A DNA stretch of 64,000 bases, taken from Kalaharituber pfeilii (taxonomy: Eukaryota > Ascomycota > Pezizomycetes > Pezizales > Pezizaceae). The stretch spans positions 62,001 to 126,000 of the forward strand of contig WHUZ01000064.1 in assembly GCA_015179045.1 (NCBI GenBank), in the 5' to 3' direction. This document shows, piece after piece, positions 219 through 63,585 of this stretch; the first letter of the stretch is position 1; each line of letters starts with the position of its first letter. The translations under genes were made by a program, and so were the position numbers. The notes under the pieces are model-generated. The model did no database searches. It was not told the origin of the DNA and saw only the letters and a program-made list of their open reading frames with translations.

Positions 219-282
219 TCCTCGCCATAGCCTACAAGGCGGCATGCGAGTAATGACATAAAAAAAAAAAAAAAAAAAAGAA
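219..282 (+). mobile_element. Hairpin-only family-1 retroinsertion
   Basis: The insert contains only the terminal hairpin (CTCGC/GCGAG outer stem, GCCT-ACA-AGGC inner stem), the TAATGACAT end and a poly(A) run. It is flanked by the 12-bp target-site duplication ACCTGAATAGGC at 207-218 and 283-294. The inner stem carries a compensated C-G to T-A pair relative to the commoner GCCC/GGGC. Confidence 0.85.
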
Positions 283-299
283 ACCTGAATAGGCCAAGC

Positions 300-2327
300 C
301 TGGTGATACCGGGTTGTCACTTTGGGATAAAGGATGGATCTTTCTATGGTTTCTTTGATTATTCTTCTTTGATTGTTTGGACTTCTTTCATTATTAGAAT
401 TCTTTGACATAGAATTTTTCTTTACTTTGTGATTCGAGTTCTTACTTTCTGCTTCCTTTGTTAACATGTAGATTAACGTAGTATATTTGTTCCCTAATTA
501 GGAGAAGCAATCTTTTCGGCACTCTTGCAATCCTAAACTTTGCACCCACGTTCCAATTCGCTATTTAATATGTGAATACAAGCCTTGTGTGTATATTCCG
601 CCAAATCTCAACCTTGCGGGTACTCTGAGGATAGTAGACACTATCGCTCTCCTCTTACAGTGACAATTTTTATGAAGATGGTGGCCTGAAATATACGGCC
701 TTAACAATTTCCCTAAGGCCAATTATGCGGGTGCGTCCAAAAAAGAAAAAGAACATTTGATGGCATATCCCCCCACCGCATGGGGACCATGCGGATTGAA
801 TTTCCTCCAAAGTCGGATCAATATCTACCACAAAGGGCTTGAAGGGCGTCTGATTAATACACGGGCTGTCATTGCGGTTGCAGTACTTGCAATTTCGTAT
901 GGCTAACGACTAGCCCCGCTCGCTATGGAGTGTTATACAGTGGCGTGATATACAGCTGAGATGCTGACTTTCAATGGGCGGCTGCTGTTCTAAAGTCGAC
1001 CCCGGAATTCCAGCTCCGCACGTAAGGAGGGCTTCGTTACGTAGAACAAGAGAGCTTCTCAGGAGGAATAAAGAAGATCTGTATCGTTGGGCCCAATAAG
1101 ACTGATTGATTAATTAAAGAGATGCAGGACAAACAGGATTATATATACATGATGAACATTGCATGATGTGACTGCAGAAGCATAACTAGACAGGTAGGTG
1201 TAACATATCAGGCAGGTGCAGAAGTCATTGCAACTAAGCGCTGTGGTATGAAGTTGGTGCTGTGAAGTTATTGCATGATTCATACACATAATGGCAACGT
1301 AATGTAGATCATGGATATGAGTTATATGAAAGAACAGAATAGCAACCAATAAACGAACAAAAACAGCAGCAGAAAGACTATCTATTAGTAACAGTAACAG
1401 AAAAAATTTAAGCAACATGCGGGTGGCGGATATCATGTTTCGACAGCTGCTTTAGGCTATATCCTGTTTTCATTTGTTTCCTGTCGAAGAGCGCATGTTC
1501 CTGGCACAATGATCTTCTTTTACCTCACCACCGCAATCCCCAGCAAAATGACCCACAGGCCAAAATGAGCTTATAATACTCGTATTCAATCAACAGGTTC
1601 TGGAATCCCGAGGTGGAGATCGCTGAGTCATGCGCTGCTGGATAATGCGTTCGACACTGGACGGAAGCAAGTGTCACTTGTGGTAACATCTGCAAATCAG
1701 TCGTACCCAAAATTTATCCTCAGCTGGTCTACACCACTGGAGTTTGCGGACTTAGACCATGTCAATTCCAGTCTTGCGGCAACTCACAGGTGGGGCCACC
1801 CTATCCCATAACGTCATGCGGTAAGCTATACGATAGCTTCGGCGAAGTGCTGTAGATCCTGCAACCTGTTTTGCCCTCTGGAGATCAGTATATTTCCCTC
1901 GATGTCACCAAAGGTGAGATGGTGCATTGGGACTGGAAGGCTGAACAGCTCTCGATGCAATTTTGTCTCCATATCTTTCGTATTGGTCACATTTATTATG
2001 ATTTATTTACTAACTAGAAAGTGCCACAGTGCTAATGAATCCTGACTGGTCAAAGCTTTTGATAATTCCTCACTACCGGTCAATTGAGGATGCATACAGT
2101 TCAGCGCTTTCCAGGTAGCGAGCCTATACTACATCGTTATATATCTTAGTCACAAACTTCCCATACTGGATATTGTCGGGCCGAGGCGTGATCCACAAAG
2201 GGCCGATATGAAGTAACAGAAGTTTATTGAACACAAAGGTTTTACGTAGTTGAAGTAATAATTCAGGTTGCAGGGAACAAGAATACGAGGTCTACAAGGG
2301 TCGAGCATAGTTATTAGTAATGGTAGG
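300..2327. other. No recognisable feature
   Basis: I see no confident gene, RNA or repeat here. Short open frames exist on both strands (for example a 61-codon frame on the minus strand at 1525-1710 that ends near a GTGAG sequence), but none has a recognisable domain or convincing exon structure. The sequence is of ordinary base composition and may be intergenic or a long-decayed insertion. Confidence 0.4.
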
Positions 2328-8034: not shown

Positions 8035-8090
8035 TTTTTTTTTTTTTTTTATATCATTACTCGCATGCCGCCCTAAGGGCTATGGCGAGG
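8035..8090 (-). mobile_element. Hairpin-only family-1 retroinsertion
   Basis: Poly(T) then ATATCATTACTCGCATGCCG and the rest of the hairpin (GCCCTTAGGGC inner stem on the element strand), ending exactly at the hairpin base. The target-site duplication AGGTACATACG is at 8024-8034 and 8091-8101. Confidence 0.85.
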
Positions 8091-8370
8091 AGGTACATAC
8101 GTTACGAATGTAATGTAGGTAGCATCAAGACGAGACAGTCACAGAACCCGGACTACGACAAATGGCGAAAGCCCTCAGAGCGGAAAAAAGGAACCGCCTG
8201 GGGCTGAGCTACAAACCCCTGCGGAGAAAAGGACACAGGGTGAGCATCCTAGCCGGACTGCTAGGAGGCAAAGGCCTACGAGCCTGGAGGTTCAAAATAA
8301 GCAAAGCCAACAGCCCGGAACAATGAATCCAACAGGCCGTGATCTGCATTGGACTGAAACCGCCTGGACC

Positions 8371-8503
8371 GGTCCAGGCCAATCAGGCCGGTCCAGGCCA
8401 ATCAGGCCGGTCCAGGCCAATCAGGCCGGTCCAGGCCAATCAGGCCGGTCCAGGCCAATCAGGCCGGTCCAGGCCAATCAGGCCGGTCCAGGCCAATCAG
8501 GCC
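8371..8503 (+). repeat. 19-bp tandem array (7 units)
   Basis: Seven uninterrupted copies of GGTCCAGGCCAATCAGGCC, followed by degenerate GGTTCAGGCCATTCAGGCC units. Each unit contains GGCCAATCAGGCC, an interrupted GGCC palindrome. Copy C of the same element at 61672 lacks this 5' array altogether, so the array expands and contracts between copies. Confidence 0.9.
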
Positions 8504-8935
8504 GGTTCAGGCCATTCAGGCCATTCAGGCCGGTTCAGGCCAATTAAACGAATCACTCCACAGCTATCCAGCTGAATTAAGGCCAGCATTTACCAGATTG
8601 TTTGAGTATTTAAATGAGTAGAATCTCCCGTATGTCTAGAATTTTAAACAGCAGCGGTCTACGGCTTTTGTCAAGTATGTATCACACTTTGTGTTCAAGA
8701 ATATATACTAAGAAATATTTTAGAAATGATGGACCTTCCAGATAATACAACAGACTGGACTTAATTCTTCGATGATGATACCTGATGCGCAACTGTCAAT
8801 TACTGATAGTGGAAATATCCAGGACTATTAAAATCTAATTCACCTGGGTTAAATTCCAAAATCGCTTGAATTTACGTAAATGGCCTGGTCGGCCTGGACT
8901 GGCCTGAATGGCCTGGACCGGCCTGATTGGCCTGA

Positions 8936-11197: not shown

Positions 11198-11252
11198 CTC
11201 GCCATAGCCCATAGGGCGGCATGCGAGTACTGATATATATTAAAAAAAAAAA
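11198..11252 (+). mobile_element. Hairpin-only family-1 retroinsertion
   Basis: The insert starts exactly at CTCGCCATAGCCC and ends in poly(A). The 12-bp duplication TATTGCCGGTGT is at 11186-11197 and 11253-11264. Confidence 0.9.
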
Positions 11253-11450: not shown

Positions 11451-11494
11451 TTTTTTTTTTTTTTAATATCATTACTCGCATTCCGCCCTGGAGG
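11451..11494 (-). mobile_element. Sub-hairpin family-1 insertion
   Basis: Poly(T), AATATCATTACTCGCATTCC, GCCCTGGAGG, then the duplicated target TTCCGCTTT (11442-11450 and 11495-11503). The element part stops inside the hairpin after about 30 nt. Confidence 0.75.
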
Positions 11495-13148: not shown

Positions 13149-13308
13149 ACTGTGCTATATAGTCCACCGCATTTAAGTCGCATTTTTGTTGTATCTACTC
13201 TTATCACAGTTCTCGCTCATCGTATATATCGCTCGTCTCACTCCATACTCCTCGCTCCTTTGCACTCCTCGCTACTTACATTTATCGCCACTCCTCATCA
13301 CTTATCTC

Positions 13309-14319
13309 ATGATGTCTACATCTACTACTATCACCACCACCACGTCTACTGCTCCTGAGGTCTATATCAGCAAAAATGGATCAGTCCCTAAGCTGACTAC
13401 TGAGAACTACAGAGAATGGCGCTTAGGTGTAAAGTATATTCTCCGTGCTGACCGATCTTGGGATATTGTGCAAGGAATAGAGCAACCACCTGCGCCTCCT
13501 GTCCATGCTCTCAATGCTAGACAAGCAGCAATAGCAGAGGCTGATAGAGTATACGAATCACAACTTGAGTCCTATGAACAGCGCAAGTGGCGCGCTGCCT
13601 CTACTCTCTACTGCTCAGCTACGAAGGCAATTCAGGCCTATATCGATGAAGACAGCGAACCCCATACCATTTGGACAACTCTCCAGGATCATTTTGATAC
13701 TGCAGAAAGCCGCGCTGGACCTACTTATCTACGTACACAGTTCGAGTCAGAGAAACAACAGGAGGAGCAAACAGTTGACCAATATATCAGTATCTTGTTA
13801 GACTATCAGCATCAGTTAGCCCACTCAGAAAACCAGAAGATCACTGATGGGGCTCTAATCCACCACCTGCTTACAACTCTTCGTCCATCCTTCGAGCATA
13901 TTGTTGATATTATTCTAAGCCAACCTGTTGCACAACAAACACGAGCAAATGTATTCAACAGTTTACGCACCTATGAGAAACGAAAGCAGCTAAAGACAGT
14001 TGAAAATGCTGCAGTACTTGCAGCTAACAGCAAGCATGGTCATGACAATAGCAGTAATGGCCAAGATAGCAGCAGATATCGAGGCAGTAAAAGATACTGC
14101 CATAACGAAGATGAAGCCGAAAGCGAAGATGAGGATGAGGATGATACTCAACCAAAGCGTTTTGCAGGAGTGTGTTGGTATTGTACACGAAAAGGACATA
14201 CAGCAAAAGACTGCAAAATTAAGAAGAAAGCAAAGGAACTGAGGAATAAACGGCAGAAATTGAGCTCGGATAGCGAAGACCGTGCTAATTCTAGTGTCAA
14301 GTTAACAAGAGGTTTTTAG
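13309..14319 (+). CDS. Copia-type Gag
   Basis: 336 residues from the first of two adjacent ATG codons; an in-frame ATG at 13186 would add 41 residues but lies within the leader. The N-terminus is Thr-rich (TTITTTTSTAPEVYIS). A Gag region of the UBN2/Copia type follows (LTTENYREWRLGVKYILRAD ... FESEKQQEEQTVDQYISILL ... IHHLLTTLRPSFEHIV). After an acidic tract comes one CCHC zinc knuckle, CWYCTRKGHTAKDC (C-x2-C-x4-H-x4-C). It should form the particle and package RNA. The frame is fully open, but no Pol follows, so it must act with another element's enzymes. Confidence 0.88.
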   Translation: MMSTSTTITTTTSTAPEVYISKNGSVPKLTTENYREWRLGVKYILRADRSWDIVQGIEQPPAPPVHALNARQAAIAEADRVYESQLESYEQRKWRAASTLYCSATKAIQAYIDEDSEPHTIWTTLQDHFDTAESRAGPTYLRTQFESEKQQEEQTVDQYISILLDYQHQLAHSENQKITDGALIHHLLTTLRPSFEHIVDIILSQPVAQQTRANVFNSLRTYEKRKQLKTVENAAVLAANSKHGHDNSSNGQDSSRYRGSKRYCHNEDEAESEDEDEDDTQPKRFAGVCWYCTRKGHTAKDCKIKKKAKELRNKRQKLSSDSEDRANSSVKLTRGF

Positions 14320-16364: not shown

Positions 16365-17498
16365 TTTTTTTTTTTTTTTTTTTATATCAATACTCGCGTG
16401 CCGCCCTATGGGCTATGGCGAGGTCTAGTTACATCAAAACAAAGTACAAGTATGGAACAATAGAAGTAAATCCCCCGGGGCTAACCCCTCGCCCATTCCA
16501 AAATTCCTATCACTCCCCGAAGGCCCTCCCCTTCATCTTGGTCACCCAAGGGTCTGCACAATCCATCCTCACCTCTTGGGCATCTCTGCTTCCAGACTCT
16601 ACATTGAGACAATATGTGAAGGGTCGTTTCTTCAGCCTCGCCGCACCACCGGCATTCCGGGCTGTCAGCTGTGCCGACCTTGAATTTCCAGCGCCGGAGG
16701 CCCTTGCCTCCAAGGATGCCAGCTAGCGTTGCGACCCTATTGCCTAGTCTGCGTAGTGGCCTATATGACATATGCAGTCTGTTTCTTTCGGCCGCTCTCC
16801 TTGCTTTGGCCTCTTGTCTCATCCCGTCCTCCGTGACAATCTCGTTTTGATATGGCAGCTGTGTACCAACCTTGGCTGCTCGATCTGCTTCGGTGTTACC
16901 TGGGATTCCTTTATGACCTTTGACCCACATTACCGCTATGTCAAGGTCGCCCCTTTCGTTTCTCCGGTCCCAAGCCTCCCTTACTCGCTGTGCTGGCCCT
17001 TTGTGTGTTGGTTCCCCTTCGGCGATCCTTTGTAGCTTGGTTATTGCCGTCTGGGAGTCAGTGATGATCAGTAATTCAGTGAATCGGCTTGTGAGGGCAT
17101 CCTCCATGGCAATCAATTCCGCGTCATTTACTGTACTGAGAGCTCCCAGATATGTGGAAGTCCGTTTCTGGGTGTGCTGGGAGAACGAGCCTGCCCCAGT
17201 AGAGTCACCTATTCGGCTCCCATCTGTATAAACGCTGACCCAGCCTTGGTCTTCTGCTTCGGCAATAGCTGCCATCCATTCTTCAGCTGAGGTATCGGCT
17301 GGGAGTGTGGGAAATGTAGCTAATGGAAGAGGTCTTCTACGATGTAGCGATCCCCTGAGGTATGTGGTGTCCTGGTCTTCTCTTTGTAGCAGTTCTCCCA
17401 TAAACCGGAGTGTGCGTGCTTCCACCCGTATGCAATTCAAACAATGGTCCAAGCTTGTTGTGACATGGAAGCGTGTATTGGTACAGTAAGTAATACTA
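16365..17498 (-). mobile_element. 5'-truncated Tad-like LINE with near-complete RNase H
   Basis: An uninterrupted frame from 17530 to 16481 covers the end of ORF2: linker (LRGSLHRRRPLPL), RNase H (VYTDGSRIGDSTGAG with the first Asp, NDAELIAME with the Glu, IITDSQTAI with the second Asp, NTEADRAAK with the last Asp), the ERNRL-SYRPLRRL-GILGGKGL segment and the CRWCGEAEETTLHIL knuckle, stop after GILEWARG. All four acidic RNase H residues are present. The first roughly 10 codons of the frame lie in the adjacent MITE. The 3' hairpin is the common CTCGC form. Confidence 0.9.
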
Positions 17499-17712
17499 CT
17501 CGTTACCAGCATTTGTTGCTGTAATAGCATGCGTTGGTTGAAAGGCTGCGGCTACATTGCTATTTCCCCAGGCCCCCAAGAGAAACGCTGCTGTTTTCCC
17601 TACAAAACTGTCCTCTCGACAGAGAAGATACCCTGTTGCCACACCAGGTCACTGACCTCTCGCACGGACTATGCCCAGCCTCTAGTTTGCATCACTAAAT
17701 GCTGGTAACAAG
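17499..17712. mobile_element. 214-bp Tc1-like MITE
   Basis: TA (17497-17498) CTCGTTACCAGCAT ... ATGCTGGTAACAAG TA (17713-17714). The ends match those of the 611-bp element at 35590-36200, including the internal CTCTCGCACGG and GCATCACTAAATGCTGGTAAC motifs on the right side. It has no coding capacity. Confidence 0.75.
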
Positions 17713-18454: not shown

Positions 18455-18510
18455 TTTTTTTTTTTTTTTTTTTTCCCGTGACCCCGCATGCAGCTGTTCG
18501 CCATGGCAGG
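18455..18510 (-). mobile_element. Hairpin-only family-2 retroinsertion
   Basis: Poly(T), CCCGTGACCCCGCATGCAGC, TGTTCGCCATGGCAGG. The duplication AGTAGACGG is at 18446-18454 and 18511-18519. It ends exactly at the hairpin base. Confidence 0.88.
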
Positions 18511-18806: not shown

Positions 18807-19656
18807 CAGTCTACCCTTGCTATACCGGATCCCTAAAATCTGGCACTTTTCATCCGGTATAGCAAGGTTCCGGTATAGAAGAAAATGCTTGGCAGACAGG
18901 GGGGTGATACAATTTTGTAAATTCAAATAATTACTGAAATAGGAGATGAACGAAGTAAACATCAACTTGTTTCACACCCAGCCAAAGACATCAATATGCA
19001 TCAGTCACGAAATCTAGAAAAATGTTGGGCCTTGAGTGTGCTTGAGAAGCATCAAATATGTAAACATTGACTAGAACCAAAATATGCTAAAGAAAAGTTA
19101 AATGAATTTTTTTTTTTTTTTTTTTTTTTTGTCACATGACCCCGCATGCGGCTCTTCGCCATGGCAGGACAGTTAAATGAATTTGATAAACATCTTTGAG
19201 ATGAATTGGTAAGATTACCGTACTTTAACTTAACTTTGATATCCAAGGTATCTAATTCATTATTTTAAGCTGACCAGTAGCTGTATCTACTTAGTCAGGT
19301 ATTTTGAAATAAAGTGGTAAGTGGTTAGCAATTAATCTCGGAACATGGAACAAGAAGCAACGAAGTGCCCAGTTTCCATTACTCGAACAATAGTAGCAAC
19401 GGCATTAGCAGAAGTAGTGACAGCAGTGGTGGCAGCCAAGTGTGAAATGGAGTAGTCTAAGATGTATTAGTATTAGCGCATCCGGTATAGCAAATATTAT
19501 TTGTATGGAGACAGGGGGGTACTTGTCTGGAGGTTTCTGTCCGGTCTGGAATTGTTAGGGCGTCCTGTATAGCAAGGGCAATTTGTATGGGGAACGGATG
19601 TTGCAGCCAGAGGCCATCCGGTATAGCAAGGTTTCCGGTATAGCAAGGGTAGACTG
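18807..19656. mobile_element. 850-bp pogo-like MITE
   Basis: Flanked by TA (18805-18806; 19657-19658). Ends CAGTCTACCCTTGCTATACC and its inverse, with further inner CCGGTATAGCAAGG copies near both ends. No transposase is present. A family-2 hairpin insertion is nested inside. Confidence 0.85.
19110..19170 (-). mobile_element. Hairpin-only family-2 retroinsertion nested in the MITE
   Basis: Target duplication AGTTAAATGAATTT at 19096-19109 and 19171-19184. The hairpin carries GGCGAAGAGCC, giving a perfect GGC/GCC inner stem. Confidence 0.9.
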
Positions 19657-21688: not shown

Positions 21689-23381
21689 CTATAGTATCCA
21701 AAAAGTGGTATCTGAGGCAGCATCAGATGTTTCAGAGTCATCTGTATCAGACCAGGCTTCTGGTGACTCTGAAGCAATTCTAGCTTGTTTGCGAGTACGT
21801 TGGGATGGTTGACGCTTGTTTTTGGCCTGTGGTTGCTGTGGCTTCGACTTGGATGTTCTTTTTTTTTTCGGTTTTTGCTTCTTTTGCTCTTCCATCTCTA
21901 GCTGCTTCTTGAGCCTGATAATATCCTTTCCAGTGATGGGCCCAATGACTGGAAGACGTCTTTGGTCCTTTGTCTTGAGTTTTTTACCACCCCTCTTGAG
22001 TTTCATATTGATATCTCTCTCAATATCAACCTCAGTCATTGCTCCTAATGCTGCTGATGAGAGTTTAAGAAATGACTTTTTGATTTCTGACTGAGAGGCA
22101 TTTGGAAGTCGTTGAATGAAGCGAATAGTACGTCTTTTGAGTGCTTTTGGTGTCCTAGGAGTATAGACACTATGGGAGGATATTGGACGTACTGGAGAGA
22201 GGTAGTTTTCGATAGCTGTATGTTGCATATTGCCAAGGGGGATTCTGTAGTTGCTAGGATATATTCCAGTCCCTGCCCATCCAGACTTGATATTCTGCTC
22301 CATAAAGGCACGCTCTCGAGCTGTCTTAAGCATTGGCCAAAAATTTCCTTTTCTAACAATATCAAAATTCTCTCTAGTAAAGGTATCCACCTCTTGACTA
22401 TAGGCATGTTGTAGAGGTGCAAATAACCCAACATCTAAAGGCTGTAGAAGATGTATTGAGTGTGGGGGAAGACAAACACTAACATATCATGCTCCAAACA
22501 CCATGAAAGAAATTCCTAAGAGCAATGAGAGGCATGTCCATCTAGAAACAACACAAGACGATGAGTTTTTTTAGACAATTTCATTGCTAGGGGTAAAAAT
22601 GATCCTGCAAATAGTCTTGACCAATTTTATTATCTGTCCATCCCTTAGATGAGTGGGTAAATCTTGCTTCCTTATCCTCTGGAGTTATACCTGCATACCA
22701 TCCTGCTACATGAGTTTTTCCTTTATATATAATATATGCAGGTAATACTTTACCGGCTGCATTAATTGTCTCAATATCTGTAATTGTTTCTCTGTTTCCA
22801 TCCACCCTCTTTCGCACATGCTTTCTCCCAGCTCTACAAATCACTTTGCATTTGCTTCCTCTTCCTAACATAAACCCTTTCGTATCCATATTCCATATAT
22901 TCTCTGCGGGTATCTTATTCCTTGCTATCACTTTTTGCGCTGCCTGAATAAACCTTTTTACCACTTCCGGATTATCTGCTACTGCCTGCTGGCGCTCCTG
23001 AGCTGTTGCTAACTTCTGCTTAACCTCTGGGTGTCTTTTCACAAACCTGCGTACCCAATTTTTGCCTAAATCTTGCTTAATGCCCCCCTTACATTTAATT
23101 ATTAAACTAGTAGCAATCTCTCTCAAAGTTTCTATCTCAATAGGAAATCCCATATCATCCATTCGCTTAAGATATCTTACCACTGCCTTCTCCTGCTCTT
23201 TATCTAGGTGCTGCTGACTCTCATGACTAACTTTACGAGCAGTAGTCTTCCCTTTATATCTATATCTCACTGTAGCTTCAACTAGTCTTAAAAAGTCTGC
23301 TGCTCTCCGAACTGACTTGAACTTACCATCTTTAAGGCCCTTAATAGCCTCCTGAATTTTCGCTTCTTGATCTTTTGCCAT
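21689..23381 (-). pseudogene. Fot1-like (DDE_1) transposase, frameshifted
   Basis: The first 264 codons (23381-22587) are open. They contain a psq-type helix-turn-helix (AIKGLKDGKFKSVRRAADFL), a CENP-B-like second helix-turn-helix (NWVRRFVKRHPEVKQKLATA) and the first catalytic Asp block (NIWNMDTKGFMLGRG, with Thr where Glu is usual). A frameshift then puts the second Asp (FLDGHASHCS) in another frame, followed by a TAG. The third motif (LLQPLDVGLFAPLQHAYS) is split again before a 233-codon tail (22390-21689). That tail is lysine-rich with a KKKRTSKSKPQQ segment, then acidic. At least three disruptions make the enzyme inactive. Confidence 0.88.
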
Positions 23382-23419
23382 GGCTGGGTTCTATAGACCT
23401 CCGTGAATGATTGTTGTTG

Positions 23420-23477
23420 CCTCGCCATAGCCCGTCGGGCGGCAAGCGAGTATTGATATATAAAAAAAAAAAAAAAA
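23420..23477 (+). mobile_element. Hairpin-only family-1 retroinsertion in the Fot1 element
   Basis: Duplication GATTGTTGTTG at 23409-23419 and 23478-23488. Inner stem GCCC-GTC-GGGC, outer CTCGC/GCGAG. It starts at the hairpin base. Confidence 0.9.
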
Positions 23478-23624: not shown

Positions 23625-23684
23625 TTTTTTTTTTTTTTTTTTAAATCACATAACCCCGCTTGTAGCACGTGGCCATGGCAGGGT
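23625..23684 (-). mobile_element. Hairpin-only family-2 retroinsertion
   Basis: Duplication CACTGGCAGGGATT at 23611-23624 and 23685-23698. The hairpin variant (CGCTTGTAGCACGTGGCC) keeps the outer GC-rich stem. Confidence 0.88.
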
Positions 23685-24305: not shown

Positions 24306-24493
24306 AGCCGACCCCCGAGAACAGGAGACGACGACCCAGACCCATTACACACCCTAATGGAATTGCTTGGGGAGGATGAGTAAAGGGACACGCGGTAGAC
24401 TCTATTTCTTTTCCTTTGTATCCATTTCATGTAAGTTATCTATCCATCTTGCCCTGCCCTGGCAATAGCTGCATGCGGGGTCATGTGAAAGAG

Positions 24494-24534
<41 letters not shown>

Positions 24535-30815: not shown

Positions 30816-31126
30816 AATTATATATATATATACGAGATCGCCTCACGTGGCCCTTATCTCCACGTGCCTTCCATGCCAAGCTTTACCTCTTACCTATTCC
30901 GTCGTCGTCACCACACTGCTGCCTAGGCCTTACGTTCACTTCTCTCCCTTGCTTCTCTCTGCCTCACCTCCGATGCCTTTGCATAAGCTAAGGCTTTCTC
31001 AGTCTCTCTTCTTGCCTCGATCTCTAGGTTCTTCCTCTTTGTCTTCTCTTATCTCCTTCTGGCAGTATCCTTTTCCTCAATTGTAGCTGTCTCAAGTCTT
31101 ACTACTACTGAAGCAAGGCTCTCCTC

Positions 31127-31420
31127 CAGTGTTCCCAACCGCCCAAGCTGGTCCAGGCCGCCCAGGCTGGTCCAGGCCGCCCAGGCTGGTCCAGGCCGCC
31201 CAGGCTGGTCCAGGCCGCCCAGGCTGGTCCAGGCCGCCCAGGCTGGTCCAGGCCGCCCAGGCTGGTCCAGGCCGCCCAGGCTGGTCCAGGCCGCCCAGGC
31301 TGGTCCAGGCCGCCCAGGCTGGTCCAGGCCGCCCAGGCTGGTCCAAGCCGCCCAGGCTGGTCCAGGCCGCCCAGGCTGGTCCAGGCCGTCCAGGCTATTC
31401 AGGCCGTTCAAGCAATTTCA
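31127..31420 (+). mobile_element. hAT-like group-2 terminus with 19-bp array
   Basis: CAGTGTTCCCAACCGCCCAA matches the terminal repeat of the complete element at 43145-44595. It is followed by about a dozen units of GGTCCAGGCCGCCCAGGCT (31150-31390). No matching right end was found, so it is probably truncated. Confidence 0.6.
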
Positions 31421-31690
31421 GGGGCAGGAAGGCTGGTTACGAGGCTATTTCAGGGGCCACCTTCAGCTTCCTTGGACACGGATTTAATATGCACCCTTCA
31501 ATATTTTCGGATAACTATCTAAACTTTTTGTTTATTGAGCAGCGCTTTTCGCAGGTATTCAGGTAAGGAATTTTTTTTTGTATCGCTTGATATTGTATCG
31601 CTCGACTTTATACTAATTTCTTATTAGTATTATAGGGAGACAGACATTCTAACCACCGGTACTGGCGATGATAATTCCTTTAGTATTCTA

Positions 31691-32589: not shown

Positions 32590-32957
32590 AATGGCGGACT
32601 ACCTAGCATTCAGGTGTGAAGAAGAGGAGTACCCAGAAGAGTAGGAAAGGTGGGAAGATGCGGACGAAAAGAAGTGGGTGGAGCAACCAGAGAATGGGGA
32701 AGAGGTGGACATCTTGGGGGAGTTTTTTGGGTGGTTGAAGGTGTACTCGGGGAGGGGGCGATTTCTCATTTGTTTGAAGGTAATGGCGGAGGAAAGTTGT
32801 AGCTATTTTTATTGCCTCGTGGAGGTGGGGTAGGGTGGGGTCGAGGTTTTCATTTGTAGAGAAGGGGGTGGAAGAGGTAGCTAGACAAGCCTGCCTCCGG
32901 GCTTTGAGCGCTTAGACCAGGGGCCCTGCGATGGCGAACAGCTGCACGCGGGTCACG
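32590..32957 (+). mobile_element. Family-2 LINE 3' portion
   Basis: Ends GCCTGCCTCCGGGCTTTGAG ... CCCTGCGATGGCGAACAGC ... GCACGCGGGTCACGT plus poly(A). The part upstream has short frames (MADYLAFRCEEEEYPEE) broken by stops. The GCCTGYCTCCGGGC motif is shared with 34570-34829 and marks the family-2 untranslated region. Confidence 0.6.
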
Positions 32958-33050
32958 TAAAAAAAAAAAAAAAAGAAGAAAAACAATCTAACCCCTGAGT
33001 TCACTAGAATGTATCTCTTAGTAGCATAGACTACCTGTTCATAATAGCCT

Positions 33051-34400: not shown

Positions 34401-34569
34401 CCTCCTGCAGTTAGTGACCGTGTATCTAAATTAATAGAATCATCTTCTTGTAGTCCATCTTCCACTGTACTTTTCAATATCCTTTTGATCCTTTGAGATT
34501 TTTCGACGCAACGTTATTTTACTTTCCTTCCAAAAGGTCTTGTCTACTACTCTACAGCGTATCCTGGTA

Positions 34570-34829
34570 TTTTTTTTTTTTTTTTTATTAACCACGTTAC
34601 CCCGCTTGCAGCGCCAAGCCATGGGGGAGTCCATGGGCAAGCCCTCATAGCCCGGAGACAGGCTAAACGAAAACTTCTATCTACATGACGTCGCCTCCCC
34701 CTCTCCGCCCCCTGCCCCCCGCCCCCCACCGCTACATCTCCAGCTCATCCCGTTCTCCCCCGTCCGCTTCCAGCTCTTTTCTCTGTCTCCCTATTCTCTC
34801 AACTCCTCCGACGAAATTTACCCCCCTAG
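34570..34829 (-). mobile_element. Family-2 element, about 260 bp
   Basis: Target duplication AGCGTATCCTGGTA at 34556-34569 and AGCGTATCCTGGT at 34830-34842, with a third copy at 34847-34860. On the minus strand it ends AGCCTGTCTCCGGGCTATGA ... CCATGGCTTGGCGCTGC ... GCGGGGTAACGTGG plus poly(A). No open frame. Confidence 0.75.
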
Positions 34830-34969
34830 AGCGTATCCTGGTCTAGAGCGTATCCTGGTAGTTGACTCGGAGGAGCACTAGAGCTCCGTTGCGAAAGGTC
34901 TCTATTCTGATCTAGATTTCTTAAGTGCTGCCAGCTATTCTATTACTTTAAATTCCACAGTTCACAAGA

Positions 34970-35335: not shown

Positions 35336-35349
35336 CAAACTAGCCTTTC

Positions 35350-35528
35350 GGAAAGAGGAAACCTTTTTTTTCCCCTGTTTTCATGACGCCACTGAGATTT
35401 TTCCCCTGTTCAAGTTTCGGATGATCAACTAATACTATTTTATTTAGTGTATTCTATTACATATCATGACATTTCAGTGGCGTCATGAAAACAGGGGAAA
35501 AAAAAAGGTTTTCTCTTTCGGAAACCTC
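35350..35528. repeat. Inverted repeat of about 48-bp arms
   Basis: TTTCGGAAAGAGGAAACC ... CATGACGCCACTGA is repeated inverted after about 70 bp (TCAGTGGCGTCATGAAAACA ... CTCTTTCGGAAA). It could form a long stem-loop and may be a tiny foldback element. Confidence 0.85.
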
Positions 35529-39544: not shown

Positions 39545-39865
39545 AACTGTGTGAAAGAGGAGGTGGCCAGGTGGGGAAGAAGAGGTGTGGAGACCGAGAA
39601 GACAGAGGAAGGGGATCCATTGAGGACGGTATTCCTCGCCATAGCCCATAGGGCGGCATGCGAGTAATGATATTAAAAAAAAAAAAAAAAGAGGACGGTT
39701 CTAGAACTTATGGGGGAGCCGGAGGAGAGGAGGTAGATAGAGGGAGAGAAGCAAGAAGAGATGGAGTAGATATAATGTAAGGAACAGAGAGTAGAGTAGA
39801 GAGAATACTCGCCATAGCCCACAGGGTGACAGCGAGTAATGAAATAAAAAAAAAAATAAAAAAAG
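39545..39865 (+). mobile_element. LINE C-terminus and tail, split by a hairpin-only insertion
   Basis: Encodes DPLRTV then, after the nested insertion, LELMGEPEERR-stop, the same ending type as the LINE copies at 24306 and 9854. The tail is CTCGCCATAGCCC-ACAGGGTGACAGCGAG plus A-rich sequence. Confidence 0.65.
39631..39690 (+). mobile_element. Hairpin-only family-1 retroinsertion
   Basis: Duplication GAGGACGGT at 39622-39630 and 39691-39699. Consists of ATTC plus the hairpin and poly(A). Confidence 0.88.
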
Positions 39866-48297: not shown

Positions 48298-48367
48298 TTT
48301 TTTTTTTTTTTTTTTTTTCTTTATATCATTAATCGCTTGCCGCCCTATGGGCCATGTCGATGTGCAT
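48298..48367 (-). mobile_element. Hairpin-only family-1 retroinsertion
   Basis: Duplication TGGAAGCTC at 48289-48297 and 48368-48376. Hairpin of the ATCG/CGAT type with one mismatch, plus seven extra bases. Confidence 0.8.
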
Positions 48368-48448
48368 TGGAAGCTCATAACCCGTGTTTGACCGACCAGT
48401 GAGTGATTGTGGGTAAGTTGCATCGCGTTGGAGAGGACGCGTCATGTT

Positions 48449-50850
48449 TTTTTTTTTTTTTTTTTTTATGTCATTACTCGCATGCCGCCTTGTAGGCTAT
48501 GGCGAGGATTTAAATACATATCAACGAATAAACAGAGTATAACATCACAGAAAAAGTAAAAAACAACGTCGCATCATCGAGCGTGTCCTGCACCACTCCG
48601 TCTACTCTGCCGCCCAGTCCATCACCTCCGCCAGCGTCATTTCTGCCCCCCTAACCCCCTCATCCCTTATCGGCCCCCTTAGTCCCCCCTCTCCTCTCGG
48701 TAGTCTCTTCCTCCACACCTCGCACCCCCCCATGATGTGCGCAAAATTTTCATAGTCTCTTCCGCACCACCTGCACTCGGGAGAAGTCTCCTTCCCTATC
48801 TTGTGTCTCCACTGTCGTAATCCCTTGTTTCCCAAGATTCCCGCGAGAGTGGATACCCTTCTCCTGCTCCCTAGATACTCCAGTGGTCTGTACGACAACT
48901 TCAATCTCTTTCTCTCCTCGGCTCTCCACTCTTTGATCTGCTGTTTGATCCCCGCCTCTGTCACTGTCTCATCCTGGTATTGCATTGCTGTGGCAACCTT
49001 CGCCGCCATGTCCGCCATGGCGTTGCCCCTGACTCTTCTGTGCGATTTCACCCACAACACCGCAACGTCATATTCCCCTCGGGCTACTCTCTCTTCCCAC
49101 CGCCTCCTCACAAACTCAGCCGACCCCTCTGGCGTTAGGTCTCCTCTCGCTATCCCTTGTAGTCTTGTTATGGTAACTCTGGAATCCGTGACGACCACCA
49201 ACTCTCCGTCTCCTTTCAGGGCTTCTCCTACCGCTATTAATTCTGCATCGTTCACCGTGCATTGCCTCCCCAGATACACGGATCTGTCTTTGGTCCCCTG
49301 GTATACTCCAGCTCCTGTCCTCCCCTCTCTCCTGCTTCCATCTGTGTATATACTCACCCACCCCTCCTCTGTCTCTCTGGCTATGATGTCTTCCCACTCT
49401 TGTCCACTAAGGTCTTTGGGATGGAACTGATGTATATGAATTGGTAAGGGGTCGCGGTGTTCGAGGGATCCTCTTAAGTACCTGGTCTCCGGTTGCGGGT
49501 CTCTTATTGGTTCCTTCTCAAACCTCAACGCTCTTTTTTTTTTTTTTTTTTTTTTGCATTACTCGCGTGCCGCCCTATGGGCTATGGCGAGGGTTTTATT
49601 TAAAAATAGCTAAAAGAAAGGAAATAAAACTTAGATACATGATGCCCGCGGTTTGTATGGTATTGCGGGGGGAAGCGGTCAGTAGGTCCAAATCATCTCC
49701 GTCCTCTTTCAGACTCGTACTGGCTCGCCCTGAGCCACCTCCTCCGAGTCGCACCTTGTCCATGTCTTGTTTCTCTTCCAAGTAAGCTACTATGGAACTT
49801 GTCTTCCTCAACGCTCTTGCTTCCACCCTCTTCGCCTCTCCGTTCACGAAGGTCTCAACTGATTCCAAGTTTGCCAACCCCTCCACCACGTCCCTCCTCG
49901 TCCCCCATGGAGCCCCGACTATCTCCCTGGCTACTCCATACTGCCATTTCTCCAGCTGTCTGAGCTTGTGTTCCGGAGGGGAGGCTTTCGCGTAACTGGC
50001 CCACGCCCAACTTCCCCAGGTAGCTATGTTCCTGGCGATGCTTGTATACAACTGTCGTCTTCTGCCGGGAGGAATCTTGTTTAGTCTTGATGGTACCCGC
50101 CACGCCGCCTTCCCCAGTTGCAGCCTCCTGTTGAAGTGGTCATTGAATTTCAGCTCCCAGTCTACATACAGACCTACCAGCCTGTAGCTTCGTCCCTTTG
50201 TCCCTATCACGACTGTCTCAGACTTCCGTGGATCCAGCTCAAACCCCTCCTCCTGTGCCTCCTCAGTCAACCTCCTGCGATGTTCCACTATGTCTTTCTT
50301 CAGCTGCCTCAATGACCTGTTGGATACGACACTGTGAAAATCGTCTACATAGGACCTGGAGAACTCGCGGCTGTCGACTTTCTTTGCTACTGGCGCGACC
50401 GCCACCAGAAAAAGTACCGGGGATAGAGGGGAGCCCTGAGGGGTGCCATCGGTCATTCTGCTCTCCCCCCTGACCCTTCTATCCCACGATACTTTGAACG
50501 TTGTCGGCTGAAGGAACCCTTCCACGAATGCTGCTATGTTCGGATCAACCGCATCTAATCTTCTCACCACTCTCTCTCTCCATATGTGGTTGAACGCTGA
50601 TTTTATGTCATCTCCAACTATTGCTGTCCACTCTCTCTTCTGCAGTCTCCTGTCTACCTCCTTCAGTACCTGTCGCGGCAGATCCTCTGCACCTCGCTTT
50701 GGTCTACCGCCCAACTGAGTCTTTCTGAACAGTTCGTCTTGTCGTTGAATGAGGTCCGCTACTACCGTCTGGCCCAATTTTGGCGACTGTATTCAGCAGG
50801 GTAATCGGTCTCCATCCTGCCGGGTCATCCCTGGGTCTGCCTTTTTTGTC
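48449..50850 (-). mobile_element. Longest LINE copy: reverse transcriptase and RNase H
   Basis: ORF2 runs 50850 to 48602 if the nested insertion at 49536-49805 is ignored. Reverse transcriptase motifs, in order: WRPITLLNTVAKI (frameshift just after), DDIKSAFNHIW (motif A), GTPQGSPLSPVLF (motif B), YVDDFH (motif C) and the thumb (QLEKWQYGVAREIVGAP). Then RNase H: IYTDGSRREGRTGAG, NDAELIAVGEAL, VVTDSRVTITRL and NAMADMAAKVA, and the CRWCGRDYENFAHIM knuckle, ending VMDWAAE-stop. Both polymerase Asp residues and all four RNase H acids are present. It is 5'-truncated in the first palm motif. Hairpin GCCT/AGGC type. A GTCATG sequence occurs at both ends as a possible short duplication. Confidence 0.92.
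49536..49805 (-). mobile_element. ORF1-only LINE derivative nested in ORF2
   Basis: Duplication CCTCAACGCTCTT at 49523-49535 and 49806-49818. Carries the ORF1 end (TSSIVAYLEEKQDMDKVRLG), the untranslated region and the CTCGCC hairpin plus poly(A). It interrupts ORF2 exactly between thumb and RNase H, which at first sight suggests a false fusion protein. Confidence 0.88.
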
Positions 50851-52887: not shown

Positions 52888-52956
52888 TTCTTCTTTTTTT
52901 TTTTTTTTTTTTTCATATCAGCACTCGCATGCCGCCGTAAGGGCTATGGGCGAGAG
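52888..52956 (-). mobile_element. Hairpin-only family-1 retroinsertion
   Basis: Duplication GGGTACATC at 52879-52887 and 52957-52965. Ends at the hairpin base. Confidence 0.88.
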
Positions 52957-57952: not shown

Positions 57953-60900
57953 TGGTTGGGGACATGTGTACTCGGATCAAATTTCGCATCAACTTCAACA
58001 CTCAAATCACAACTAAAATAAATAGATAAAATTAGTTTCATGCTATACGATGATAAATTAGTGAATGAAAAATAATTCTATAGAGCGATATCTATTTAAT
58101 TAATTTTTTGTACTGGTGATTTGACAGTCAAAGATGAGCAGTTTTATATGGGAATCGGTCAAATTGTCCACCTCTAGTAACTACTAAATATAGTATAGTA
58201 TAAACCAACCTAACCAAAAAAGGAAAAACACTAACCTCAAATAGAATAGTATATACATATACTCTATACATATCCCTTCTACCACTTCGTTTTATCTGGT
58301 ACTTGTCTATGACCTTTATATATATATGAATGAAACTCCTTCGTACCATAAGTTAATCCTTCACTATATGCATCAATAGACCGTAAACAATGATAATAAA
58401 AACGATTAATAGATGCAGAAGAAACAGAATGTAATGCCAGAGGAAGAGTATCTCGTAAACCATCAAATGAATAAGAACAGTTTTCTCGTAAATAATACTT
58501 AACAGAACACCAATAACGCTCAATAAAATTAAGTTCACAATGAAACTTAGGATAAAAAATTACCTGTTGACCAGCAGCTTCTAATTCTTCTTCTAGTCGG
58601 CCTTTTTGCTGTATAAAATCAGGTTGCTGAGAGAGTAAAGTTCGTGCGCAACAGCCTCCGGCAAGAGTTGGTGTACAGCCAGTACGGTCATGAGAGGTTG
58701 GACATTTCAGAAGAAAAGCAAACCCATCTGACCGATGGCTTTTCCAAAGCCCTCTTTCTTTCAGCACTTGACGAATACCTTTTGGCTTTCCCCGTAGTAA
58801 TATATTAGGATAGTTCATAGGAAATACCATAGCTTGAGGTATTTGCTTTGCATGAATAAATCCTTCACGCATCAAAGGTTGTTCTCCACCAGGATTGAGA
58901 TTCATTCGTGCTGCTACAAGTGCATCTGGAGCAAATGAACAGTGATTTGAAGCATTATCAAATGCAAACAAGGCTTGACAATTAGGAAATGCATACCGGA
59001 AGATAGGTAGTGCTGTTCGAATAGTATGTTCAACCATTTTGTCACCTGTCCAATAATTCTCCTTTCCATATTCCAATAATTCAAGTGCTTCACGAACTGG
59101 CTTGCCAGTTTCTGATATTGGCCACATAGGATTTCGTAAAAGCTCATCATCTGAAATATGATCAGGAATACGTAGAATTCCACCCGGAGTAAGAAAACCA
59201 GAGACCATTATGCCTTTACCCTTTCCCTTAGGTCGTAATGGTTGTTTTCCATCTTTCATCCAGATCCTACGCTTGCCATCATTAGCATTGAATGTAGACT
59301 CATCATGCGTAATTAAAACTAATGGTTTTTCTCCATTGAGAACATTAGCTGGTGGCATTTCAAATGATCCATCCTCTTTAAAAATCACAAAGCGGTGTTG
59401 AGCTTTCTTCCATTGGGGTAAAAAAACGGAATTTCGATATGCAATCACATCTTCCCGCTCATGTCCATCGATATAAACTGACTTTGTGACAGTATTATAT
59501 TGAAATCCCATTCTTTTTAGCCATCGCCGTGCAGTTCTAGCTCTTATACGAAGTGTACGGGGAGCTATTGAAGTATTTTCCCCTGTATTGCTGTCGTGGT
59601 TTTGTAATGTAGCCGCTATAACAGAAACCGCACGCTGTGAATTTAAGTATTCACCAACTGCTTTCGCTAGCCCATAAGCTGTAATCTCTATTTTAACATT
59701 AATCATTTATTTTTCTAACTGCGCATTGATGTATTCTATACTACTTACTTTCACCAGTACCACTTAGCCATTCCCGTACTGCTAATTGAACCCCCTCATC
59801 ATTAAACCATGACTTGACTTTACTAAAGCAGCCTCGGTGCCCTTCTGATATAGTTCGATCCTATATATATTAGTATAAGAAATTAAGATCCTCATATATG
59901 CTTTACCTTTTTCCATTGCAGTTCCCATGTTATAACCTTTCTTGCAAAATATTTCCCTCTATTATAGCACCGTGCAACAGCAAAAGCCATCTCTTCTCGT
60001 GTCTCACCAGGCTTTCGTAACCGACATGTATACAGAAGAGAAAGCACTGCCCTATGCCGCATTAAATTCTGCCCTTCAAGCTTTATCTTCTTTGATTGCA
60101 GCTTCTTCTCAAGATCCTTAATAGCTTGTGTATCTGAATCTAATTCAGTCTCTGCTTCCCTAGTAGTAGAAGCCTCAGATGTAATAGACTCGGACTGTGT
60201 CTTACTGAAGTAGTATGTAATACTACGAGATCCATTAGCTGCTGCTGCCAATTCTGCTGCTGTTTGTCGTTTTCTTCGTTGCTGCCTTTCGCTATATTTA
60301 GGACCTCGCTGGTACCGGATATTTCTGGATGATTCTCCTCTAGATGACATCAAGAGTTCAAATACATCTTGATTGAACTCATCATTCTCTGGCTCATCCT
60401 CAGTGAATTCACAATCTTCTTCTGAACTAGAGTCAAACTCTTCCCAATGAACTGCTGTTGGCACCTCCGGCTCTCCTGGTCTCCATGCATCCTCCTCACT
60501 TTCATTATCCAAATGTGCTATTAGTTCCGCTTCCAGCTGTGCTTCAGCTAGCCGCGCTCGTTTTGCCTGTTTTGCCTGTCGAACTCTCTCCAGATGCAGC
60601 GCCCGCTTGCTTTTCCGTCCCATTTTGTGAATCTGTATTAACATTAAGTGAGCCATAGACTAATTAATTAACTCAAGCATTGGAACGTATTTACCAATTC
60701 TAGTCCTTTAATTAATTCTTTGATTCAAGCGACAGGGTGGCTGAACAGGCCGATATGTGCGACCGATGCAACAGGTATCAAGTATGCAAGTATAGGGGAC
60801 AACCAGCGGTGGACAGTGGATTGTTGCTGTAGGGCGGTAGGAAGAAAATCGCATGAAAGAGGGGGGCATCAGTGCATGTAACGACTACATAACTAGTGCT

Positions 60901-61042: not shown

Positions 61043-62571
61043 ATGAGAGTAAATAAAGAAAAGAAAATCCAGTAGGCGATTAAAGGGTTGCAGGAGGGTA
61101 AGTTTCCATCAGTTCGGAAGGCTGCTGCATTTTATGAACTGGCTCCATCTACGCTGAGATATAGGTATAAAGGCAAGACTATTTCTCATAGAGAAAGTCA
61201 TGAGTGTCAGCAGCATCTAAATAAAGAAGATGAGAAGGCATTAGTGAGATATATTCAGCGGGTAGATGATATGGGATTCCCTATTGATTATAGCACTCTG
61301 AAAGAAATTGCACTTAGCTTAATTCTTAGGAAAAAAAAGATTGAAGCAGTAGGTGAGAATTGGATATCTAGGTTTGTCAAAAGGCATCCGGAGGTTCAAA
61401 AGCACATAGCAAATACCTTGGCATGTCAACGGGTAATGGCAAACAATCCTGAAGTTGTTAAAAATTTCATTGAAATGGTCGGAAAGATAGTGAAAGAAAA
61501 TAAAATTCCTCCGAAGAATATTTGGAATATAGATGAGAAAGGATTTATGTTAGGAAAAGGAAGAAAGTGTAAGGTAATTTGCAGGGCTGGAAAGAGGAGA
61601 GCAAAGAAACGAACAGATGGTAATAGAGAATGGATTACAGATATTGAGACTATTAATGTGACAGGTAATGTCAATGAATCCAACAGGCCAATTAAACGAA
61701 TCACTCCACAGCTATCCAGATGAATTGAGGCCAGCATTTACCAGATTGTTTGAGTATTTAAATGAGTAGAATCTCCCATATGTCTAAAATTTTAAACAGC
61801 AGCGGTCTACGACTTTTGTCAAGTATGTATCACACTTTGTATTCAAGTATATATACTAAGAAATATTTTAGAACTGATGGACCTTCCAGATAATACAACA
61901 GACTGGACTCAATTCTTCGATAATGATACCTGATGCGCAACTGTCAATTACTGATAGGAAATATCTAGGACTATTAAAATCTAATTCACCTGGGTTAAAT
62001 TCCAAAATCGCTTGAATTTACGTAAATGGCCTGGTCAGCCTGGACTGGCCTGAATGGCCTGGACCGGCCTGATTGGCCTGATTGTTTCAGGCCGCCTGCG
62101 CCGGTCCAGGCGGCCCTCACGGCCTGGCCTGATTGTTCAGGCCTGGCCTGGCCTGTTGGATTCATTGGGTAATGTACTACCTCCATATATTATATTTAAG
62201 CCAAAAACACATATAATGGGGTGGTATACTGGTGTTAATGAAGATGATACTGAAGTACGATTTAACTACTCACCTAAAGGATAGACAGATAATAAAATAA
62301 GTCTTGACTATTTGCAGAATCATTTCATTCCTAGAGTCCAAAAAAATATAGATAAGCGTTTTCCTCTTCTTTTTTTATCGGATGGACATGCTTCTCATTG
62401 TACTTGAGAATTTCTTTATTGGTGTATGGAAAACAATATTACTCTTTGTCTTCCTCCACATTCTATGCATTTACTACAGCCTTTAGATGTCGGGTTATTT
62501 GAACCATTACAGTTTGCATATAGCAAAGATGTGGATAACTATACCAGGGATAATTTTTGATGTGATCTCGC
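61043..62571 (+). pseudogene. Fot1-like (DDE_1) transposase, copy 2, split by a hAT-like element
   Basis: Begins at KIQ-TAG-AIKGLQEGKF (a stop in the first helix). It is then open through the helix-turn-helix (NWISRFVKRHPEVQKHIANT) and first Asp block (NIWNIDEKGFMLGKG) to TGNV. After the 496-bp insertion it resumes LPPYIIFKPKTHIMGWYTG, a TAG in place of Trp, FLSDGHASHCT (second Asp), a TGA, and LPPHSMHLLQPLDVGLFEPL (third motif), stopping at DNF-TGA. A different lineage from the copy at 21689-23381. LINE sequence replaces its 3' end. Confidence 0.85.
61672..62167 (+). mobile_element. hAT-like non-autonomous element, copy C, 496 bp
   Basis: A perfect 8-bp duplication GGTAATGT (61664-61671; 62168-62175). 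Ends CAATGAATCCAACAGGCC and its inverse. It has the same core as copies A and B but no 5' 19-bp array. Removing it and one duplication restores the transposase frame exactly. Confidence 0.93.
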
Positions 62572-62652
62572 GCGCCGAGTCTCTCCAGAGGTAGGTATGT
62601 CAGACCCAGTCTATTCCTTTCTCGTGCTCTCTCTCGCTTTGCCTCCTGTCTC
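62572..62652 (-). mobile_element. Inverted LINE fragment
   Basis: The minus strand encodes MRQEAKRERARERNRLGLTY and LPLERLGA, part of the linker after RNase H. It abuts a plus-strand LINE head to head. Confidence 0.75.
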
Positions 62653-63585
62653 ATGCTAGGTATACAAAGCACAGTGAACGATGCAGAACTGCTAGCAATG
62701 AGCAAAGCAATGGCCCAAGATGGGGAACTGCTGATTGTCACCGATTCGAGAGTAGCCATATCAAAACTAAGAAAGATCGCGAAGGGCGGCCCAACCCACG
62801 AAGGTCCGGCGAAGGAAGTACGAGACCAGTGGGAGGAAAGGACAGCCAGGGGCGACCTAGACATCGCGGTACTTTGGGTCAAGTCTCACATAGGCATCCG
62901 GGGCAACACGGAGGCCGACAGAGCAGCCAAAGTCTTTTTTTTTTTTTTTTTTTTTCACGTGACCCCGCATGCAGCTGTTCGCCAAGGCAGGGCAGCAGCC
63001 AAAGTCGGGACAGCCTTGCAATACCAGGACGAGATAGTCACGGAAGCAGGCATGAGACAACACGCGAAGGCACGGAGAGCTGGCGAAAGAAATAGACTCC
63101 AGCTAAGTTATCGCCCTCTACAAAGGCTAGGCAACAGAACAGCAGTAGCGACACTCGCAGGCATCCTCGGGAATAAGGGACTAAGACAATGGAGACACCA
63201 AATAGGTCAATTCGACTTGCCGGAGTGCAGGTGGTGCGGCAAAGCCCTGGAGAACATCAACCACATACTAAGCGACTGCGAAGTGTGGAGGCGGAAATGG
63301 CCTGGGGGGTGAGACAGATCTGAGAACCCCACCAAAACCCGAAAAGGAAGGGGAAGGAGACAAACTGACGGAGCTACTGAAGTGGGCAGGGCGGGAGTAG
63401 AATTCTACACATTTTCGATGGGAAGAGACTTCCACCTTGACACTTTTATTTCCCTCTCATTTTTATTATCGACATTTTCCACTCCATTTTCTTTCATGTA
63501 CCTAACCACTCCCTTTCATGTACTTGAGCTCGCCATAGCCCCCAGGGCGGCACGCGAGTAATGATATAAAAAAAAAAAAAAAAAA
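62653..63585 (+). mobile_element. 5'-truncated LINE with RNase H and nested hairpin
   Basis: Encodes LGIQSTVNDAELLAMSKAMA (Glu), LIVTDSRVAISKLRKIAKGG (Asp), LWVKSHIGIRGNTEADRAAK (Asp), then reads in frame through a nested family-2 hairpin, resumes AAKVGTALQYQDEIVTEAGM, and ends with CRWCGKALENINHIL and KWPGG-stop at 63312. A frameshift separates the last LLKWAGRE. The hairpin is CTCGC/GCGAG plus poly(A). Confidence 0.88.
62935..62994 (-). mobile_element. Hairpin-only family-2 retroinsertion, frame-preserving
   Basis: Duplication GCAGCCAAAGTC at 62923-62934 and 62995-63006. Insert plus duplication add 72 bp, so the RNase H frame stays open and gains FFFFFFFHVTPHAAVRQGR. Confidence 0.9.

Follow-up and report, generated by a model that had tools for sequence, protein, structure and literature searches.

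Why should a LINE (long interspersed nuclear element) leave behind copies that hold little more than the last hairpin of its RNA? Why LINE copies are frequently so short has been asked for a long time, with weak processivity as the usual answer, and the question is raised again by a stretch of 64,000 nt (hereafter the window) from contig WHUZ01000064.1 of the Kalahari desert truffle, Kalaharituber pfeilii, whose genome assembly comprises 78.03 Mb in 360 contigs. The original prediction, made from the letters of the window, had listed eleven insertions that consist only of a terminal hairpin and poly(A), belonging to two hairpin families. All of them were borne out, each reading with direct repeats of 9-14 nt, and 11/11 were recovered by an automatic scan of A-runs. 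These copies belong to a discrete, recurrent class of insertions whose 5' ends lie at the base of the tail hairpin, and a further hairpin provides a second stop; the hairpins of both families are the 3' tails of RNase H-bearing LINEs. We call the families F1 and F2 (with subtypes F2a, F2b and F2c), the tail hairpin next to the poly(A) hp1, a second hairpin located upstream in some F2 LINEs hp2, and the 5' base of a hairpin its foot; a foot copy is one whose target-site duplication (TSD) lies at that base. The hairpin-only copies of the window, among them a twelfth that was absent from the earlier list, are as follows.

219..282, plus strand: F1, starting 2 nt 5' of the stem base; TSD ACCTGAATAGGC
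8035..8090, minus strand: F1; TSD AACGTATGTACCT
11198..11252, plus strand: F1, 5' end at the stem base; TSD TATTGCCGGTGT
18455..18510, minus strand: F2a, 5' end 2 nt inside the usual F2 end; TSD CCGTCTACT
19110..19170, minus strand: F2a; TSD AAATTCATTTAACT
23420..23477, plus strand: F1; TSD GATTGTTGTTGC
23625..23684, minus strand: F2b; TSD AATCCCTGCCAGTG
24450..24531, plus strand: F2, the twelfth copy, just upstream of an F1 tail at 24559; 12-nt TSD ATCTATCCATCT
39631..39690, plus strand: F1, starting 4 nt 5' of the stem base; TSD GAGGACGGT
48298..48367, minus strand: F1, starting 6 nt 5' of the stem base; TSD GAGCTTCCA
52888..52956, minus strand: F1; TSD GATGTACCC
62935..62994, minus strand: F2a, inside the RNase H reading frame of a LINE; TSD GACTTTGGCTGCT

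The claim that these copies stop within a few bases of the hairpin foot also held, those at 39631 and 48298 starting 4 nt and 6 nt 5' of the stem-closing base. Between the copy at 48298..48367 and a LINE RNase H frame 242 nt upstream lies that LINE's own tail.

Do such ends form a peak, or are they the short side of a smooth distribution? We scanned 354,561 bases, made up of the window, twenty 10-kb stretches taken from only two contigs (C295 and C46) and 30 stretches of ~3 kb (L001-L030) centred on F1 matches. Runs of at least 8 A were taken on both strands, blind to family and with an identical rule for every body length: a TSD had to reach at least 9 letters after leading A's, each mismatch costing 3, with its upstream end no more than 800 nt away. 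A-runs less than 60 nt from the start of a sequence or less than 40 nt from its end were left out. Among 255 A-runs, 82 bodies bounded by a TSD were found, of which 34 measured 35-45 nt and a single one was shorter than 35 nt. All 34 end in known tails (19 F1, 15 F2), and three more foot copies, with longer or interrupted tails, fell at 46-50 nt. The counts of bodies in the bins 0-34/35-45/46-59/60-99/100-199/200-399/400-799 nt were distributed as follows.

Window: 0/10/1/1/2/5/3
10-kb stretches: 0/6/2/3/0/1/3
Flanks of L001-L030: 1/12/1/5/1/2/6
Ascertained central copies of L001-L030: 0/6/0/2/2/4/3

At 100-199 nt, both window bodies are a single palindromic element read from both strands, and the twelfth copy, at 24450-24531, was counted as a 60-nt body because the scan chose a longer repeat with one mismatch. 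When downstream flanks were permuted between A-runs as a control, 0-0.4 matches per replicate were obtained in each bin below 300 nt and 1.0-1.6 in each bin from 300 to 800 nt, against 11 observed at 35-40 nt and 22 at 40-45 nt. The length plot that the original prediction had proposed shows a peak at the foot instead of a smooth distribution. With the window and the central copies left out, 18 bodies were found at 35-45 nt where 0.35 was expected from the density of bodies at 46-800 nt (Poisson P ~7e-25). One of the 18 (L021+304) is a copy cut inside the hairpin and lengthened by TA repeats, and 17 remain.

A profile search of the same sample detected 164 hairpin tails, 113 F1 and 51 F2. A TSD was found at the foot in 36 (20 F1, 16 F2), elsewhere in 41, and not at all in 87, which the length statistics leave out. 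None of the 36 foot copies showed collinear similarity to another copy upstream, and the LINE protein sequence detected 242 and 944 nt upstream of two of them lies outside the TSD and thus belongs to neighbouring elements. Among the 41 tails with a TSD elsewhere, 35 begin at scattered points 10-722 nt beyond the foot and three at the base of hp2; of the others, the shorter TSD of the one at window+24453 makes it a foot copy, L021+270 ends within the hairpin, and L010+2302 has its end close to the stretch that corresponds in another subfamily. Truncation points are not spread along the element as in ordinary 5'-truncated LINEs, but show a step at the hairpin base. The window also holds copies with other ends.

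26..50, minus strand: copy cut inside the F1 hairpin, 17 nt plus poly(A), outside the scan by its edge rule; TSD AAGGCCCACATA
~11456-11494, minus strand: copy cut inside the hairpin; short repeat AAGCGGAA, judged by eye
32886..32970, plus strand: longer F2a copy, hp2 then hp1; a TSD was looked for and none was found
34567..34840, minus strand: longer F2 copy with both hairpins, body ~255-260 nt, outer edge approximate; TSD TACCAGGATACGCT

At 63720-63832 (minus strand), an F1 tail without its first stem bases abuts the poly(A) of a second F1 copy, which looks like one insertion into the A-tract of the other.

How exact is the cut? For F2, 18 ends were compared with their parent types (..GGGGC, ..GGGAC or ..GGGTC before CCTGCC): the 16 foot copies, the tail at window+24453 and L042+5496, with a TSD of only 8 counted letters. 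The match to the parent before CCTGCC extends exactly 2 nt in 13/18 copies and 3 nt in 2/18; the remaining copies match by 1 nt (1/18, or 2 nt with a GGGGC parent) or 0 nt (2/18). The F2 5' end is thus nearly exact to the nucleotide, the parent match being lost after 2-3 nt in 15/18 copies. One position further out, the flank matches the parent in only 2/15 copies, which is no more than chance and is as expected for run-off at the end of a template. A single extra nucleotide absent from the parent was seen in 3/18 copies. In F1, the most frequent first inserted base, in 7/20 copies, lies 2 nt 5' of the stem-closing base. As separate observations, an odd palindrome is centred on the F2 cut point, reading CAGGG-N-CCCTG in F2a and F2b and GGG-N-CCC in F2c (e.g., window ~32918-32930, plus strand), and none was seen at the F1 or hp2 cut points. 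Near position 5085 of L042 (minus strand), an F2c tail is split by ~300 nt of other sequence, maybe an insertion within an insertion; its 5' end lies one nt from that of L010+2302.

Whole-genome counts, which address short sequence patterns and not TSDs, reproduced the step for F2b: AC plus the core hairpin occurs 201 times exactly, and GGAC plus the core 134 times. Among the first 100 exact F2b hairpins listed, AC precedes 93, GGAC 62 and an 18-nt parent stretch 56; the whole of hp2 is present in 43, and 14 nt beyond hp2 in 26 (22 of those 43). In other words, 31 lose the parent within 2 nt of the foot and 6 over the next 14 nt. Only this first step is clean: mutations in longer copies account for at least three of the losses, and variation among parents for part of the later steps. 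With mismatches allowed, the F2b counts were 627 for the hairpin, 375 across the foot, 631 for hp2 and 194 across the hp2 base. For exact F2a, CAGGGG was found upstream in 3 of 50 hairpins and was absent from 47, these 50 being taken without a TSD check. Near variants that do carry CAGGGG are common, as CAGGGG plus hairpin within two mismatches occurs at 454 places in the genome and a related end at 340, so that only the exact F2a type is nearly always hairpin-only. A first F2a upstream pattern, which matched the window copy only, was too specific, since other extended copies exist, and was not used as evidence.

The second stop is provided by hp2, which in F2b ends reads AAGCCTG-TCTC-CGGGCTT upstream of hp1. 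A pattern for hp2 has eight matches in the sample, six of them with a TSD, and its base is the 5' end in three of these six (L006, L007 and L040); the end in L006 allows one nt of TSD overlap, and the closing pair in L007 is T-A, not A-T. Closing ends of hp2 read AAGCC..GGCTT or TAGCC..GGCTA. The other three copies have longer bodies of 255, 490 and 494 nt.

The hairpins themselves are predicted structures. F1 folds as CUCGC....GCCC...GGGC.....GCGAG, with two-sided changes in 5/9 pairs, closing pair included, among 12 hand-picked rows. The predicted F2 fold, (N)CCCUGC...GCGGGG(U), has a variable top, and in hand-picked rows covariation supports only 1/12 of its pairs because the lower stem hardly varies. 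Single-sequence energies of five tails were only moderately below those of shuffled sequences (z -1.26 to -2.65).

Where do the hairpins come from? The window's reverse transcriptase (RT) and RNase H frames match the Pfam families RVT_1 and RNase_H, and the LINE features that bear on the tails are these.

48443..50792, minus strand: LINE copy of the parent type of F1, with an RT frame (RVT_1), an RNase H frame ending at 48602 and an F1 tail at 48458-48507
49534..49805, minus strand: F1-tailed LINE fragment, 250-nt body plus poly(A); TSD AAGAGCGTTGAGG
16373..17551, minus strand: LINE RNase H frame, with an F1 hairpin and poly(A) 60 nt downstream

The insertion at 49534-49805 interrupts the RT frame at 49596-50792 and separates it from its own F1 hairpin; the host LINE frame reads on across the 5' junction of that insertion. 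In the sample, LINE protein sequence was detected by tblastn at most 1 kb upstream of 13/30 F1 and 1/11 F2 tails with a TSD elsewhere, and of two further F2 tails. Short and longer copies also resemble each other in how they were inserted: the median poly(A) is 20.5 versus 23, TSDs measure 9-14 nt versus 9-19 nt, and a pyrimidine stands at -1 in 31/34 bodies of 35-45 nt and 41/47 longer ones. Over all 82 bodies the nick motif is Y|A-rich, with a pyrimidine before the TSD in 73/82, A at -3 in 37/82 and the first two TSD bases A-rich. This likeness in TSD length, poly(A) and nick motif suggests that the same machinery probably made both classes. Furthermore, hairpin variants recur on both kinds of copy, such as TACAAG with TAATGACAT at 219 and 48458, or the F2a variants CCTTGG, GCAAG, GCACG, AGCCG and AATAGC, so LINE RNAs seem to give rise to the class repeatedly. 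These shared tails and variants point to by-products of LINEs and not to a proven SINE (short interspersed nuclear element). A separate candidate, F2 as a stand-alone element without LINE parents, was rejected because longer F2 copies exist.

What, then, cuts the copies short? The original prediction had offered two mechanisms, an RT that halts on leaving the hairpin and a processed tail RNA that is copied; the second fits the exact ends and the missing microhomology somewhat better, the first less well. Judging from sequence patterns, we therefore lean tentatively, at a little under an even chance, toward templates that are LINE RNAs already shortened to the base of the hairpin. The LINE enzyme would probably recognise the hairpin and poly(A), as in stringent-type LINEs, and many templates would be polyadenylated 3' fragments beginning at the foot of a tail hairpin, where an endonuclease had cut or a 5'-to-3' exonuclease had stalled. 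Target-primed reverse transcription (TPRT) to the end of such a fragment would give inserts that carry poly(A) and normal TSDs and measure ~36-44 nt for hp1 or 76-77 nt for hp2. That it is the RNA and not the cDNA that is shortened, and by which agent, is a step for which belief and doubt nearly balance, with doubt slightly ahead. The wider claim, that polyadenylated LINE tail RNAs cut at the 3' hairpin base serve this truffle's LINE machinery as a main template, is possible but one we would sooner doubt than accept.

One point for a pre-cut template is the side of the hairpin on which the ends lie. RT travels 3' to 5' on RNA and reaches a hairpin first at its 3' foot, so that stalling on the hairpin should leave ends within the tail; the ends are seen at the 5' (exit) side instead, for hp1 in F1, F2a, F2b and F2c and for hp2 in F2b. 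Moreover, a pre-cut template predicts exact ends, no microhomology past the cut and an occasional extra nucleotide, all of which are seen in F2. For 23 longer inserts having a parent in the sample, microhomology was 0,3,2,0,0,1,2,0,5,2,0,0,1,0,0,0,0,0,0,0,1,0,0 nt, too few to separate the classes. No template-switch chimeras at the foot were recognised, although for 13/41 tails with a TSD elsewhere the sample offers no relative for comparison.

Several observations weigh against this proposal. The 20 F1 copies have ends anywhere between +1 and -6 nt, and the F2 parent types were assigned by us from longer copies. The few copies cut inside the hairpin indicate that aborted copying happens too. 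The fold of a 90-nt F2b end was no better than that of shuffles (z -0.23). Predicted pairing upstream of the F2 feet is substantial, with a mean of 0.59 upstream of hp1 (11 long copies) and 0.59-0.85 upstream of hp2 (five long copies), and in F2 the enzyme may therefore halt at the next structure. Finally, the share ending at the foot differs widely, from 47/50 exact F2a hairpins (those without CAGGGG upstream) to 31-38 of the first 100 exact F2b hairpins listed, at similar predicted stability; neither leading mechanism explains why one is almost always hairpin-only and the other in about one third.

The other leading mechanism, in which the LINE enzyme starts on full-length RNA and stops as soon as the hairpin has been copied, is a serious possibility, although we would on the whole bet against it. 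It likewise predicts ends at the base of each hairpin, and the cause may be that cDNA freed by RNase H snaps back, that the enzyme holds the hairpin or, for F2, that it meets the next structure. The LINEs studied here do encode RNase H, pairing is predicted upstream of the F2 feet as noted above, and a Magnaporthe LINE enzyme quits its template at nucleotide-exact sites, according to PMC2104539. The motif given there, GCC*A/U, is not what precedes the truffle ends, which follow GGG in F2 and GTT at hp2. If the enzyme paused on structure, ends would be expected at the 3' (entry) foot, and running into a next hairpin fails to explain F1, since little structure is predicted upstream of its foot (mean pairing 0.44, as 3' partner 0.20, over 44 long copies). 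A U-G wobble, kept in the F2 stems in 11/12 hand-picked rows, would be an A-C mismatch in cDNA, which weakens the fold-back form a little.

Far less probable is a free-standing, self-propagating SINE-like element of ~42 nt with its own transcript. The ratio of 47 to 3 for exact F2a without and with CAGGGG, and the 468 hairpins in the genome within one mismatch of exact F2a, would suit such an element, but the near variants of F2a include the many extended copies counted above, and F1, F2a, F2b and F2c all have hairpin-only copies bearing variants of longer ones. A two-box internal promoter would hardly fit into 42 nt. No Rfam family reached its gathering score in the window, where a lax threshold gave, at 62900-63000, one chance-level match to PhotoRC-I (E 3.3, far below the cut-off); no tRNA genes were found in the window, and no promoter or master copy of the hairpin-only unit was found from the DNA sequence. 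Where a SINE would have a LINE-unrelated body with a promoter, here the whole body is a LINE tail. Movement in trans by LINE machinery by way of a common 3' end, as in SINEs, is a possibility only, the observed likenesses being the tail, the TSD size and the nick motif. Of the earlier suggestion of a smallest SINE-like unit, the discrete recurrent class thus stands while the independent unit stays hypothetical, given that these are LINE 3' ends whose loop variants also occur on longer LINE copies. Random 5' truncation, with the peak as a detection or survival effect of short inserts, has a precedent in CR1 of Anolis, where truncation is likelier near the 3' end and insertions below 50 bp are reported (PMC5389967), but is hardly credible: uniform criteria gave one body below 35 nt and 34 at 35-45 nt, the genome-wide loss falls within 2 nt, and hp2 provides a second stop.

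The surrounding region is dense in other transposons. Tc5/pogo-type (HTH_Tnp_Tc5, DDE_1), DDE_3 and Copia-type gag frames lie at 22587-23390 (minus strand), 58279-59706 (minus strand) and 13177-14319 (plus strand). A near-palindrome at ~35345-35516 resembles a miniature inverted-repeat transposable element (~143 nt, long terminal inverted repeats beginning CCCCTGTTTTCATGACGCCACTGA, flanked by CTTTCGGAAA repeats), and minisatellite arrays with a 19-bp unit occupy 8332-8559 and 31073-31471, with shorter arrays elsewhere in the window.

These insertions matter since their end points track RNA structure, at two hairpins, in several LINE lineages and, for F2, nearly to the nucleotide; they form a genomic record by which a template already cut and an enzyme that lets go can be distinguished. 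If templates are pre-cut, RNA decay or processing would shape the length of LINE inserts, and a 42-nt hairpin with poly(A) would suffice for retroposition. If tail RNAs are indeed a main template, hundreds of ~42-nt insertions would represent the smallest recurrent retroposed unit, and the exact F2a lineage would now persist almost only in hairpin-only form.

LINE truncation, protein-bound 3' stem-loops (PMC4176376) and LINE inserts below 50 bp (PMC5389967) are already known. A discrete hairpin-only class with ends on hairpin bases was not seen in searches of an open-access library and may be described elsewhere. The truffle copies share with 5'-truncated LINE copies made by TPRT an intact 3' end, poly(A), TSDs of 9-19 nt and the same nick motif; truncation there is usually spread along the element (PMC5389967), whereas many ends here fall on hairpin bases. 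CR1 in Anolis likewise yields many LINE inserts below 50 bp, but its truncation is described as falling with distance from the 3' end and not as a sharp stop at a hairpin base. In the stringent-type LINEs UnaL2 and ZfL2, a 3' stem-loop bound by the LINE protein lies beside the priming end, as the hairpin does here (PMC4176376); in the truffle, copies also end at the hairpin, a feature absent from the passages of that paper that were consulted, and protein binding and a need for the hairpin are only supposed. Mg-SINE resembles these copies in being short with a LINE-like 3' end (PMC2104539), but no separate 5' body or promoter is seen here and the tail is the whole unit. A likeness in a fungal LINE is with the template switches and MINE chimeras of Magnaporthe MGL, which also show recurrent exact ends near predicted hairpins without microhomology, and for which PMC2104539 proposes that hitting a further hairpin causes the exact exit. 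In MGL that hairpin lies upstream of the site, the motif of the site is GCC*A/U, and copying goes on into another RNA; in the truffle copies it is the hairpin just copied, after which the insert ends.

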